DNA of 64,000 bases from Aggregicoccus sp. 17bor-14 (GTDB lineage Bacteria; Myxococcota; Myxococcia; Myxococcales; Myxococcaceae): contig NZ_VJZZ01000008.1 in assembly GCF_009659535.1 (NCBI RefSeq), forward strand, positions 126,001-190,000. The letters are read 5' to 3'. Each line of letters opens with the position of its first letter. The stretch's first letter is position 1. The notes under the pieces are model-generated. The model was not told where the DNA came from. It saw only the letters and a list, made by a program, of their open reading frames with translations, and did no database searches. This document shows, piece after piece, positions 56,904-61,154 of this stretch. Made by a program: the position numbers and the translations under genes.

Positions 56904-57818
56904 TCAGCCGAGCACCGGCAGCGGCACGCGCTCGGGGGCGTTCCCGGAGGCTTCCGGGGAGCCCGCGGAGTGCACGGCGATGCCCGCGGCCTCGTTGAGG
57001 CGGCCCGAGCGGAAGGGCTCGAGGTCCAGCGCGACGAACTTGAAGCCCAGCGCCTTGAGCGCGCGGTCCACCTCGAGGCGCAGCGCGGGCGAGAGGAAGC
57101 GCTCGTGCTCCTCGGCGGCGAGCTCGATGCGCGCCACCTCCTGGTGGTAGCGCACGCGGAAGGTGCGGAAGCCCCGCTCGCGCAGCACGGACTCGGCGCC
57201 GGCGATCTGCAGGAGCCGGTCGCGCGTGACGGCGGTGCCGTAGGGGATGCGCGAGGCGAGGCAGGCCATCTGCGGCTTGTCCCAGGTGGGCAGCTGCAGG
57301 GCGTGGCTCCAGGCGCGGATCTCCGCCTTGGTGAGGCCCGCGGCCGCGAGCGGGCTCTGCACGCGGTGCTCCTGCGCGGCCTTGTGCCCGGGGCGGTGAT
57401 CCTTGAAGTCGTCCGCGTTGAAGCCGTCCAGCACCACGGCGAGCCCCAGCTCCTGGCGCTTCTTCTCGCAGAGCGCGTAGAGCTCGGTCTTGCAGAAGTA
57501 GCAGCGGTTGGTTGGATTCGCGGCGTACTGCGCGTTGTTCAGCTCGTCGTTGGCCACGAGCAGGTGGCGCGCCCCGATGCGCTCGGCGAGCGCGCGCGCC
57601 TCCTGGGCCTCCTCGGGCGCGAGGGACGAGGACACCGAGGTCAGCGCGAGGGCGCGCTCGCCCAGCTCCTCCACGGCGATCTTCAGCACGAAGGTGGAGT
57701 CCACGCCGCCCGAGAAGGCCACGAGCGCGGAGCCCTGGGCCCGCAGGGAGGCGCGCATCTGCTCGAGCTTGGGGCGCGAGGCCTCGCACAGGGACTGGAT
57801 CTGCTCGGCGTTCAGCAT
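56904..57818 (-). CDS. larE: LarE-type ATP-dependent sulfur transferase, three-cysteine form
   Basis: The ATG at 57818 gives 304 residues. The PP-loop SGGVDS (36-41) identifies an adenylating sulfur transferase, and LarE-specific residues follow. Three cysteines, C106 and C109 (NRCYFCK) and C186 (MACLASR), sit where [4Fe-4S]-type LarE proteins bind a cluster that delivers sulfur, in contrast to the single-cysteine sacrificial form. LarE makes the nickel-pincer cofactor of lactate racemase. larA, larB and larC are not in the window. It lies downstream of the APS-kinase-like gene after a terminator. Confidence 0.88.
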   Translation of the reverse strand: MLNAEQIQSLCEASRPKLEQMRASLRAQGSALVAFSGGVDSTFVLKIAVEELGERALALTSVSSSLAPEEAQEARALAERIGARHLLVANDELNNAQYAANPTNRCYFCKTELYALCEKKRQELGLAVVLDGFNADDFKDHRPGHKAAQEHRVQSPLAAAGLTKAEIRAWSHALQLPTWDKPQMACLASRIPYGTAVTRDRLLQIAGAESVLRERGFRTFRVRYHQEVARIELAAEEHERFLSPALRLEVDRALKALGFKFVALDLEPFRSGRLNEAAGIAVHSAGSPEASGNAPERVPLPVLG

Positions 57819-57838
57819 GGGGCGGGCTCCAAACGGCA

Positions 57839-57865
57839 ACGCCCCGGAGACGGCGTCCGGGGCGT
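57839..57865 (-). terminator. Hairpin between the APS-kinase-like gene and larE
   Basis: ACGCCCCGGA (57839-57848) and TCCGGGGCGT (57856-57865) are perfect 10-bp arms around a 7-base loop. On the minus strand GTTGCCGTTTGG follows, a short T-containing tract, so it is a good candidate terminator for the APS-kinase-like gene. Confidence 0.75.
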
Positions 57866-57916: not shown

Positions 57917-58645
57917 TTAGCGGGCCTTGCGCTTGGGCGCCGCCGGCGCCTTCTTGGCCGCAGGCTTGCCCACGCGCGCGGCGCGGGTGGCGGGGCGGGC
58001 CTTCACGCCCTTGTCCGCCTTGGGGGCCTTGGGCTCCTCGCGGCGCGCGTTCTTCTTCGCGGGCAGCGGGTTGGCCTTCATCTTCTTGCCGGTGATGACC
58101 TTCAGGTCCTCGGCCGTCACGTAGCCCAGGTCGAGCAGGGACTGGAAGATGCGCAGCGCCCCCTCCTCCACCGTCTCCTGGTCCGAGCGCATGGTGACCT
58201 CGGGAGAGGTGGGCGGCTCGTAGGGCTCGGTGATGCCGATGAAGTTGGGGATCTCACCGGAGAGGGCCTTCTTGTACTTGCCCGTGGTGTCGCGCTGGAT
58301 GAGCTTCTCGGTGGGGCAGTCCACGTAGACCTCCACGTAGCGCCCGATCGCCCGGCGGTTCTCCTCGCGGCTCTGCTTGTAGGGGCTCACCGCGGCCACC
58401 AGCGCCGCCACGTTGTTGCGCGTGAGCAGGCCCGCCACGTAGCCGAGCCGGCGGACGGACATGTTGCGCTCCTCCTTGGAGTCGCCCGCGCCCTTCCAGA
58501 GCTCGTCTGCCACCTCGCCCTCGTCGAGGATCTCCACGTTCCGGCCCACCTGCCGGAGCCTGGCCGCGATGTAGGCAGCCATGGTGCTCTTGCCGGAGGC
58601 GGACATGCCGGTAAGCCAAAGGGTAAATCCGTTTTGCTGGGCCAT
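57917..58645 (-). CDS. cysC: Adenylylsulfate kinase-like protein with basic C-terminal tail
   Basis: The ATG at 58645 gives 242 residues. APS-kinase features are Walker A GMSASGKST at 13-21, LDEGEV at 40-45 (canonical enzymes have LDGDNVR), the helix NMSVRRLGYVAGLLTRNNV, VSPYKQSREENRRAIG and YVDCPTEKLIQRDTTG. The family phosphorylates APS to PAPS in the cytoplasm. The substitution of LDGDN and a ~45-residue Lys/Ala/Pro tail (from about residue 195, rich in KPAAKK and PKRKAR-like segments) are unusual; the tail looks like a histone-H1 or nucleic-acid-binding extension. The sulfur operon lies upstream. Confidence 0.85.
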   Translation of the reverse strand: MAQQNGFTLWLTGMSASGKSTMAAYIAARLRQVGRNVEILDEGEVADELWKGAGDSKEERNMSVRRLGYVAGLLTRNNVAALVAAVSPYKQSREENRRAIGRYVEVYVDCPTEKLIQRDTTGKYKKALSGEIPNFIGITEPYEPPTSPEVTMRSDQETVEEGALRIFQSLLDLGYVTAEDLKVITGKKMKANPLPAKKNARREEPKAPKADKGVKARPATRAARVGKPAAKKAPAAPKRKAR

Positions 58646-58823: not shown

Positions 58824-59252
58824 TCACGGCGCCGCAGTGCGCCAGGCTTCCCTGAAATCCCCATCCTCGAAACGCCAGGCCCGCAGCTCCCCTGCCCGGC
58901 CCGCGTTCACCGCGACCACCAGCTGGAGGGTGCCTGGCAGCAGGGCCTGCCCGCCCGGGGCGGCCGCCGCCCGGTCCGCCGCCGACAGCGAGGCGGCCCC
59001 GTCCGGGTGGGAGTGGAACACGCACGCCACCCGCTCCCCCCGCGCGTCCGCGGCCCGGCACAGCGCGAGCCACTCTCCCGGCTCGAAGGCGAACCCGAGC
59101 CGCGGGTCTCCCGCCGCCGCGTTGCGCAGCGCCGTGGCGCGCAGGTCCTCCGACCCCTCGAGCACCACGCCGCAGCCCTCTTCGGGGTAGGCGCGCTCGA
59201 GCAGGCGGCAGATCTCTGCGAGCAGCGCAGGCGCGTACGGCACGCGGCTCAC
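58824..59252 (-). CDS. JAMM/MPN metallopeptidase (Mec/JAB-type)
   Basis: The GTG at 59252 overlaps the upstream stop (GTGA) and gives 142 residues. The JAMM zinc site is complete: Glu25 (PEEGCG), then His80, His82, Ser90 and Asp93 in HSHPDGAASLSAAD, matching H-x-H-x7-S-x2-D. Bacterial relatives (Mec in mycobacteria, QbsD) cleave C-terminal extensions or adducts from ThiS-like carriers. As the last gene of the five-gene operon it probably trims or recycles the carrier encoded at 59871-60143. Confidence 0.9.
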   Translation of the reverse strand: MSRVPYAPALLAEICRLLERAYPEEGCGVVLEGSEDLRATALRNAAAGDPRLGFAFEPGEWLALCRAADARGERVACVFHSHPDGAASLSAADRAAAAPGGQALLPGTLQLVVAVNAGRAGELRAWRFEDGDFREAWRTAAP

Positions 59253-59863
59253 GCGCAGCGCTCGCAGACGGGCAGTGCACCCGGGCGCAGCACGCCTGGC
59301 GCCTCGAGCAGCAGCAGCCCTGCGGCAGGCCCCTGCCCCAGCACGAGCCGCTCGAGCAGCAGTGCTCCGAGCGCGCCGAGCGCGACCCCGAGCGCTCCGC
59401 CCGGCGGCGCGGCGAGCGCCTCCGCCGCGCGCGCAAAGCAGCCCGCGCACGCCGTGGGGCCCCGGAAGAGCACCGCGCCCTGCCCTCCCCGGGCACCCAG
59501 CGCGACCCAGGGAGCGGGCCCCTCGAAGTGCGCCGGCAGCTCGGCGAGCTGCGCGCGAGGCGGCGCCGTGGGCACGGCATCGGGGTTGAAGTCCGGGAGC
59601 TCGCGCGCGAGCAGCTCCGCGGCGCTCTCGCCCACGGCGGAGGCCGGCGCGAGGAAGCCGGGCGCCCCGGGGCCGAGCGCGCGCGCCGAGGCCTCGAGCG
59701 GAGAGCCCGCCGCGGCGAGGTAGGCCGCCGCGGTGCAGCCGGCCGTCTCCGCCACGTCCACGCGCACCCCGCCGTCGAGCAGCGCCTCCTGGCCGCGCCC
59801 GCCCACCTCGCGCAGGAGGATCTGCCGCGAGTAGCGCTGGATCTGCTCCTCCCGCAGCGCCAT
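59249..59863 (-). CDS. Degenerate E1/MoeB-like protein without nucleotide-binding core
   Basis: The 204-residue protein opens like MoeB/HesA (EEQIQRYSRQILLREVGGRG, then QEALL) but the GxGGLG loop is replaced by VDVAETAGC. The strand with the catalytic Asp and the NLxRQ motif are missing, so ATP cannot be bound in the usual way. Retained are two CxxC pairs (C139-C142 and C200-C203) matching the E1 zinc site, and a late Gly/Ala/Leu-rich crossover helix (GVALGALGALLLERLVLG). It is 7 bases from the carrier gene and overlaps the JAMM gene. It is probably a scaffold or partner subunit for the complete E1 at 60375-61154. Confidence 0.85.
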   Translation of the reverse strand: MALREEQIQRYSRQILLREVGGRGQEALLDGGVRVDVAETAGCTAAAYLAAAGSPLEASARALGPGAPGFLAPASAVGESAAELLARELPDFNPDAVPTAPPRAQLAELPAHFEGPAPWVALGARGGQGAVLFRGPTACAGCFARAAEALAAPPGGALGVALGALGALLLERLVLGQGPAAGLLLLEAPGVLRPGALPVCERCA

Positions 59864-59870
59864 GCCGTGC

Positions 59871-60143
59871 CTACCCTCCCGCCATCGCGGGCACCAGCGT
59901 GACCCGGTCCGCGTCGGCGACCGGCGTGTCCAGCTCCTGCAGGAAGCGCGCGTCCTCGTCGTTCACGAAGACGTTCACGTAGCGGCGCACGCGGCCCTGC
60001 GCGTCCAGCAGCCGCGCGCCCAGCGCCGGGTGCTCGGCCGAGAGGGCGCTCAGCACGTCGCGCAGGGTCGCGCCCGGCACGCGCAGCTCCGCGCGCTCGC
60101 CCGCGAGGCTGCGCAGGGAGGTGGGGATCTTCACGGTCGCCAT
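59871..60143 (-). CDS. ThiS/MoaD-like sulfur-carrier protein
   Basis: The 90-residue protein has the beta-grasp pattern of ThiS/MoaD (MATVKIPTSLRSLAGERAEL start, NVFVNDEDARFL, DRVTLVPAMAGG end) and finishes in Gly-Gly, the tail that is adenylated and thiocarboxylated. No residues follow the GG, so no processing is needed for activation. Relatives include CysO and MoaD. It lies 1 base after tusA and 7 bases before the degenerate E1 gene. Confidence 0.92.
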   Translation of the reverse strand: MATVKIPTSLRSLAGERAELRVPGATLRDVLSALSAEHPALGARLLDAQGRVRRYVNVFVNDEDARFLQELDTPVADADRVTLVPAMAGG

Positions 60144-60144
60144 C

Positions 60145-60387
60145 TCACGCCCCTCCCTGCTTGCGGATGAGGAGGCGATGCGTTCCGGAGGGCAGGCGCT
60201 CCAGCCCGAGCACCTCGTGCCCCTCCTCGCGCGCGCTGCGCGGCACGTTGCGAAGGGGCTCGTCGCCGGTGAGCAGCACCTCGAGCAACTCCCCGGGCGC
60301 GAGCGTCTCGAGCCGCAGCTTCGTGCGCACGTAGGTCATTGGGCACACCTCGCGGGTGATGTCGAGCGTGGCCTTCACCTCTGGCAT
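60145..60387 (-). CDS. TusA-family sulfur-relay protein
   Basis: The 80-residue protein has the TusA sequence TREVCPMTYVRTKLRLETL with the active Cys15 before Pro16, and a GDEPLRNVPRSAREEGHEV second part. TusA proteins carry persulfide sulfur between enzymes. It overlaps the E1/ThiF gene start-to-end by 13 bases and sits 1 base from the carrier gene, so it probably supplies sulfur to the activated carrier. Confidence 0.92.
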   Translation of the reverse strand: MPEVKATLDITREVCPMTYVRTKLRLETLAPGELLEVLLTGDEPLRNVPRSAREEGHEVLGLERLPSGTHRLLIRKQGGA

Positions 60388-61154
60388 CTCAGCTCCTCCC
60401 ACGGCACGCCCGAGGCAGTGCCGGCACAGCCCGGGCAGCCGGCCACCCGCTCCACCCGAAGCGTGCGGCTGCGCAGCTGCGCTCCGTCTAGCACGTGCAG
60501 CGCTGCGGCCGGGCCCACCTCCGCGCCCGCGAGCGACTCGAGCGCGAGCTGCGCCTGCAGCGCCCCCACCCAGCCCGCCATCGCGCCGAGCACGCCGGCC
60601 TGCGCACAGGTGGGCACCGCCTCCGGATCCGGTGGCTCCTCGAAGAGGCAGCGAAGGCAGGGGCCCTCCGGCTCGATGCGCATCGCCTGCCCCTGCATGC
60701 GCAGCACGCCCGCGTACACAAGGGGCACGCGCGTGGCCTTGGCCAGGTCCGAGAGGAGGAACTTCGTGGCGGTGCCGTCCGTGGCGTCCAGCACCACGTC
60801 GTGCGCGGCGAAGAGCGCGGGCGCGTTGGAGGCATCCACGCGCGCCACCTGCCGCTCCACCTGCAGCGCGGGGAAGGCGCGCGCGAGCCCCTCCGCGGCG
60901 CTGTCCACCTTCCAGCGGCCCACGTCCGCGCCGCGGTGCCACAGCTGGCGGTGCAGGTTGGTCACGTCCACGCGGTCGGGGTCCACGAGCGTGAGGTGGC
61001 ACAGGCCGGCGCGCGCGAGCGCGAGGCTCGCGGGGCAGCCCAGCCCGCCCGCGCCGACCACCAGCACGCGCGCCTCTTCCAGCGCCCGCACGCGGCGCGC
61101 GCCGGCGGCAGGCCCCGGGGCGGGAGAGGCGGGAGAAGGGAGTGGACCGGACAT
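60375..61154 (-). CDS. E1-like ThiF/MoeB-family adenylyltransferase
   Basis: The ATG at 61154 gives 259 residues; longer in-frame starts read as non-coding. The full E1 set is present: GAGGLG at 34-39, Asp58 in LVDPD, NLHRQ at 66-70, Lys82, catalytic Asp126 in LDATDG, Cys183 in PTCAQAGVLG and the zinc pairs C167-C170 and C242-C245. It should adenylate the GG tail of the carrier. The usual N-terminal RYSRQ segment is missing here, while the degenerate neighbour at 59249-59863 has it. First gene of the operon. Confidence 0.92.
   Translation of the reverse strand: MSGPLPSPASPAPGPAAGARRVRALEEARVLVVGAGGLGCPASLALARAGLCHLTLVDPDRVDVTNLHRQLWHRGADVGRWKVDSAAEGLARAFPALQVERQVARVDASNAPALFAAHDVVLDATDGTATKFLLSDLAKATRVPLVYAGVLRMQGQAMRIEPEGPCLRCLFEEPPDPEAVPTCAQAGVLGAMAGWVGALQAQLALESLAGAEVGPAAALHVLDGAQLRSRTLRVERVAGCPGCAGTASGVPWEELRCQR

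Follow-up and report, generated by a model that had tools for sequence, protein, structure and literature searches.

A catalytic E1 and a degenerate E1-like partner with complementary residues are probable subunits of one activating enzyme in a myxobacterial sulfur-carrier operon

The 64,000-nucleotide window analyzed here belongs to contig C8; the genome measures 6.9 Mb, is 99.95% complete and has Myxococcus, Corallococcus, Archangium, Pyxidicoccus, Hyalangium and Citreicoccus as its related named genera. On the minus strand, five genes that overlap or abut one another run from position 61154 to position 58824 in the order E1, TusA, carrier, psE1 and JAMM. The first encodes a catalytic E1 of the MoeB/ThiF type, 259 residues long and without a rhodanese domain (60375–61154; Pfam ThiF, 6e-61). 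Its stop codon is overlapped by the gene for a TusA sulfur-transfer protein with an intact CP motif, REVCPMTY (60145–60387; Pfam TusA, 6e-20), which is followed by a ThiS/SAMP1-like sulfur carrier of 90 residues ending in MAGG (59871–60143; Pfam ThiS, 2e-16; NCBIfam SAMP1, 62.0 bits for a cut-off of 60). The fourth gene (59249–59863) encodes a degenerate E1 partner of 204 residues, hereafter psE1, that keeps the sequence R10-Y-S-R13-Q and four zinc cysteines and is devoid of the ATP-site residues. The fifth starts with GTG, overlaps the psE1 stop codon and encodes a JAMM/Mec-like metallopeptidase with an intact HSHPDG...SAAD signature (58824–59252; Prok-JAB, 4e-18).

The initial annotation had placed these five genes, in this order and with these family assignments, on the minus strand, and all of them are open reading frames as described. 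The extent that it gave to the operon, 58824–61154, is too short, as the conserved block runs on into two further minus-strand genes. An APS-kinase-like protein (CysC; 57917–58645) lies 178 bp beyond the JAMM gene, which it follows in nearly all relatives, and a LarE-type ATP-dependent sulfur transferase (56904–57839; TIGR00268, 308 bits for a cut-off of 150) comes after CysC throughout the order. APS kinases carry DGDN and DRxENIRR at the stretches where the CysC-like protein reads DEGEVADELW and ERNMSVRR, and its substrate may not be APS. Elsewhere, the same genome holds a full-length MoeB-type E1, a third ThiF-family protein, two further ThiS-family proteins and other cysteine synthases.

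We used E. coli MoeB residues 4–247, taken from the PDB matches, as a ruler for the active-site residues of both E1-like proteins. In this alignment and in MoeB numbering, the window E1 keeps the GAGGLG loop, D62, N70, R73, Q74, K86, D130 and both CxxC pairs, and thus has the ATP-site residues of a MoeB/ThiF-type E1; its own K82 and D126 are intact, and its residues 66–70, NLHRQ (codons 60945–60959, minus strand), correspond to MoeB N70–Q74. It does not have the same-chain RYxRQ segment with its trans-acting arginine: in a structure comparison its likeness to MoeB starts at about MoeB residue 17, past the MoeB RYNRQ. In psE1 the NLHRQ stretch is lost. Valine, glutamate, threonine and glycine stand at G38, G40, G41 and G43, serine at D62 and alanine at N70 and K86, and gaps fall at R73 and D130; psE1 does not have the ATP-site residues of a MoeB/ThiF-type E1. 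Retained are R11, Y12, R14 and Q15 in MoeB numbering, together with the four zinc cysteines. The RYSRQ segment spans psE1 residues 10–14 (codons 59822–59836, minus strand), and by alignment R13 corresponds to MoeB Arg14, the proposed trans arginine finger. Against Pfam ThiF, psE1 scores 17.9 bits, below the cut-off of 28.1, and its matches to MoeB models are limited to residues 2–53.

This division of residues recurs among 135 E1 and 139 psE1 sequences from all fetched loci, drawn from about 100 genomes each, with some named records duplicating assemblies. None of the 133 testable paired E1s has RYxRQ at the expected distance from the Rossmann loop; the motif stands at the expected position in 22 single-gene E1s. 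Conversely, every one of the 135 psE1s whose N-terminus is intact keeps the arginine at MoeB R14, and D62, N70, R73, K86 and D130 are mostly lost. Two psE1s have R11 replaced, by glutamine (L140) or alanine (L147), with R14 unchanged in both. Five columns alone (L3, R10, R13, Q25 and G53) do not vary among 30 psE1s with 27–59% identity to that of the window; the zinc cysteines are absent from seven psE1s. The psE1s of family f3 are longer and less degenerate, yet already lack N70, R73 and D130. As every paired locus that we examined in the order shows it, we consider the pattern far beyond chance. The loss of nucleotide loop, NLxRQ and catalytic aspartate beside preserved zinc cysteines, and the complementarity of the two proteins in their N-terminal segment, had both been read from the window by the initial annotation; the MoeB alignment bears out the former, and the latter extends across the paired loci. 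That the E1 motif is hidden by a wrongly called start was rejected by reading the upstream frame in the loci, and the three motif-like strings RHRRA, RHGRA and RHKRA lie off the motif position.

AlphaFold models, which are of monomers only, place both proteins in the E1 fold. The psE1 model (m671d508d2b1d; pLDDT 96.3) has the Rossmann adenylation-domain fold of MoeB/ThiF-type E1s and matches best, among solved structures, ThiF and MoeB (Z 18, 195–197 residues, r.m.s.d. 2.9), followed by SAE1 (Z 16.7) and NAE1 (Z 15.8). The E1 model (mf4554ef3342a; pLDDT 89.8) matches ThiF/MoeB with a Z of 31.8, then UBA3 (29.3) and SAE2 (28.9). Within the entries of heterodimeric E1s, the best chain is thus the dead one, SAE1 or NAE1, for psE1 and the live one, SAE2 or UBA3, for E1. 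We take this chain preference as supporting evidence only, as the best chain alone is listed for each entry and shared losses could bias the choice. The psE1 sequence profile agrees with it, reaching 1e-6 for SAE1 and 2e-4 for NAE1 and only 0.03–0.24 for SAE2/UBA3.

The ATP site of Uba4 combines Gly45, Arg77, Lys90 and Asp134 of one subunit with Arg18 from the second (PMC7527816). The first four numbers exceed those of MoeB Gly41, Arg73, Lys86 and Asp130 by four throughout, which identifies Uba4 Arg18 with MoeB Arg14. In the pseudosymmetric eukaryotic E1s UBA1 and Uba6, the corresponding residues, Arg57 (PMC12355090) and Arg46 (PMC9391358), respectively, have been placed at the γ-phosphate. 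The complementarity of E1 and psE1 has a mechanistic reason that goes beyond the initial annotation: the segment missing from E1 carries MoeB Arg14, which is reported to act in trans on the ATP of the partner subunit (PMC7527816, PMC12355090, PMC9391358). In a homodimer of a paired E1, devoid of the RYxRQ segment, Arg14 would be missing from both sides; psE1, as judged from its alignment, has the Arg14 position and little else of an active site.

Both genes occur together in about 100 genomes of the order, which answers the call of the initial annotation for a survey of their pairing. The gene order E1–TusA–[carrier]–psE1–[cysteine synthase]–JAMM–CysC–LarE is kept through the order with losses, and the apparent singletons of E1 or psE1 are all explained by contig ends or a labeling artefact. 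Eight relatives (G044, G046, G047, G072, G073, G074, G077 and G079) have lost E1, TusA and psE1 in a single block and retain the carrier, JAMM, CysC and LarE. An intact full-length MoeB is encoded elsewhere in all seven of the block-loss genomes tested, a situation that we compare with that of Mycobacterium, where MoeZR sulfurates CysO (PMC3227635). The initial annotation had proposed that relatives devoid of psE1 and otherwise keeping the operon would speak against a two-subunit enzyme; we looked for such genomes, and wherever psE1 is gone, E1 and TusA are gone as well. Within genus g7, the loss of the unit is caught part-way: G080, G081 and G082 have an intact E1/psE1 locus, and in G076 and G078 the RYSRQ end of psE1 is missing, TusA has disappeared and N70, R73 and D130 are lost from the neighboring E1. 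Elsewhere psE1 is under purifying selection, with dN/dS values that are near those of its neighbors (Corallococcus: psE1 0.12, E1 0.13; Myxococcus: psE1 0.22, E1 0.14).

In our view, E1 and psE1 probably assemble into an obligate heterodimer, which would activate the ubiquitin-like sulfur carrier of the operon as a two-subunit enzyme and receive its arginine finger from psE1. The E1 half would bind ATP and the carrier tail and adenylate the C-terminal Gly-Gly of the carrier. The psE1 half would bind no ATP and would provide a dimer surface, with R13 contacting the ATP phosphates in trans in place of the arginine absent from E1. TusA would then give sulfur to yield the carrier thiocarboxylate. 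Such a two-subunit enzyme was already proposed in the initial annotation, and the joint loss of psE1 with E1 and TusA and the residue complementarity both lend it support. Several observations count against the heterodimer. In family f2, psE1 is down to about 100–125 residues in most genomes, and to 88 in G128, indicating that some psE1s no longer offer the complete dimer face of an E1. Another point is the absence of the zinc cysteines from seven psE1s. At a Planctomycetota locus (L227), finger-like sequences are found both in E1 (RYVRN) and in psE1 (RFSRH). Finally, the carrier gene is absent from many E1–psE1 operons, without a close homologue elsewhere in the genome (L094, L096–L100, L108 and others; G131, G136, G134, G130, G126, G125, G087), although these genomes still hold other ThiS-family proteins. 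TusA as the activated carrier of such operons was rejected, as its C-terminus is not a conserved Gly-Gly.

The strongly shortened psE1s would also fit a scaffold or adaptor that docks the carrier, TusA or JAMM, with E1 acting as a homodimer in which another residue replaces Arg14. Docking is consistent with the overlap of the psE1 and JAMM genes and with three genomes of genus g36 in which carrier and psE1 share one open frame (...PAIAGG-APELD..RIARWAR..), fusions that we also count in favor of the heterodimer. We nevertheless regard a scaffold as unlikely, as it leaves unexplained that conservation in psE1 is highest in the finger segment, which is absent from every paired E1 in the order. 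A dead paralogue able to dimerize could instead act as a brake, competing with E1 homodimerization and tuning an activity for which it is not required. We found no direct support for this regulatory role, and we hold it to be quite improbable: the E1 homodimer that it supposes would have Arg14 on neither side, and the two proteins are lost and decay together, which suggests a positive function common to both. That psE1 is a decaying duplicate, kept in the operon by chance, is scarcely credible. The lost ATP-site residues and the short forms of family f2 agree with decay, but persistence in about 100 genomes, dN/dS values of 0.12–0.22, an invariant arginine and a model with a pLDDT of 96.3 do not. 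An anti-phage role was also rejected: no PADLOC model is matched by psE1, the carrier or TusA, and the matches of E1 to E1–E2 models are confined to the adenylation domain that they share.

The fate of the activated carrier can be approached from the gene neighborhoods. In the part of their study devoted to operon class 4e, Iyer et al. (2006) argued that SirA is the sulfur donor that replaces the rhodanese domain (PMC1779556), and by analogy TusA is the likely donor here. In several lineages, a CysM-type synthase lies between psE1 and JAMM (L088, L090, L117, L126, L147, L180 and L225); the operon synthase matches TIGR01138 (1e-96 and 3e-101). Its presence suggests a carrier-bound cysteine released by JAMM. 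Where the synthase is in the operon, the thiocarboxylate would most likely be converted to carrier-cysteine, which JAMM would then release, following the CysO/CysM/Mec logic. The operon of the window is without a cysteine synthase. Of the whole pathway, the end product is what we are least sure of, and the case for cysteine is about evenly balanced. Since LarE adjoins the operon and a LarC-family protein is encoded elsewhere in eight of the eight genomes tested, the carrier may possibly serve nickel-pincer cofactor synthesis instead; LarE is syntenic with the operon in nearly every genome of the order, even those without E1, TusA and psE1. At two loci without an E1 pair (L110 and L111, in G139 and G138), carrier and JAMM are fused in one open frame.

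Compared with E. coli MoeB and ThiF, the proteins of the operon share the fold, the ATP-site residues (in E1), the RYxRQ segment (in psE1), the zinc cysteines and a carrier with a C-terminal Gly-Gly. In the homodimers of MoeB and of ThiF, each chain carries the full set of elements (PMC12687455), whereas here they are split over two genes. The split parallels that of the human SUMO and NEDD8 activating enzymes, SAE1–SAE2 and NAE1–UBA3, in which the dead half keeps the N-terminal arginine segment and the catalytic half is without it. The analogy with eukaryotic heterodimeric E1s drawn in the initial annotation is thus supported, both by this segment and by the model matches of psE1 to SAE1/NAE1 and of E1 to SAE2/UBA3. 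In contrast to these enzymes, there is no catalytic-cysteine domain, UFD or E2 here, the chains are of 204 and 259 residues, the latter filled by the adenylation domain, and the context is a sulfur-metabolism operon. A common origin with SAE1–SAE2 and NAE1–UBA3 is possible.

The nearest precedent for a bacterial E1 with one dead half is BilD of the BilABCD antiviral system, which has one inactive and one active adenylation domain (PMC11354881). As described in that review, on which our comparison is based, BilD is a single fused chain with a cysteine domain that conjugates BilA, whereas the present system has two genes, TusA, no cysteine domain and a sulfur-carrier context. With the mycobacterial CysO–CysM–Mec pathway and MoeZ, it has in common the carrier with its C-terminal Gly-Gly, the JAMM peptidase and, in several lineages, the CysM-type synthase; it differs in that E1, psE1 and TusA would replace MoeZR (PMC3227635) and in that the window operon has no synthase. 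What Iyer et al. (2006) set out for class 4e likewise combines ThiS/MoaD, JAB, a rhodanese-less E1, SirA/TusA and adenylylsulfate kinase, and class 4c includes cysteine synthase; a second, dead E1 is not mentioned in the portions of their study that treat these two classes (PMC1779556). In the open-access literature searched, we found no bacterial two-gene E1.

Loci L180 and L187 extend the pairing of a motif-less E1 with a degenerate, motif-bearing partner to two more families within the phylum. The same kind of pair is found outside the phylum in records labeled Nitrospinota (L225), Candidatus Binatus (L231) and Bacillota (L235), where each case is based on one or two records; L233, labeled uncultured proteobacterium, is near-identical in sequence to L231. 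Most psE1s fall on one side of a branch of the tree (97/94) at which long branches meet, so that one ancient split and several splits look alike. We give about an equal chance of being right or wrong to the broader proposal that two-subunit E1s are a phylum-spanning bacterial class in sulfur-carrier metabolism (Myxococcota, Nitrospinota, Binatota, Bacillota and perhaps Planctomycetota), with the same split as SAE1–SAE2 and NAE1–UBA3 and with the dead half cut in some lineages to an arginine-finger donor of about 90–125 residues. Among the other records, three Anaeromyxobacter-like loci (L184, L185 and L186, in G024, G015 and G030) hold second E1/psE1-type pairs whose E1-like member also lacks several catalytic residues, making two dead halves, and L195, titled Comamonas sp. 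KCTC 72670, has the typical Myxococcus operon form and is probably a mislabeled or contaminated record.

Recent reviews describe bacterial sulfur-carrier E1s as symmetric homodimers and the design of one live and one dead half as eukaryotic (PMC12687455, PMC12355090), with the fused BilD as the bacterial exception (PMC11354881). If true, a split E1 in plain sulfur metabolism would offer a tractable record of how an enzyme passes from homodimer to obligate heterodimer. Elsewhere this step predates the last eukaryotic ancestor and is hidden from view. Single E1s, pairs, reduced partners and joint decay all occur in living relatives of the system, and a protein family that lies below the Pfam cut-off, that of psE1, would gain a role.
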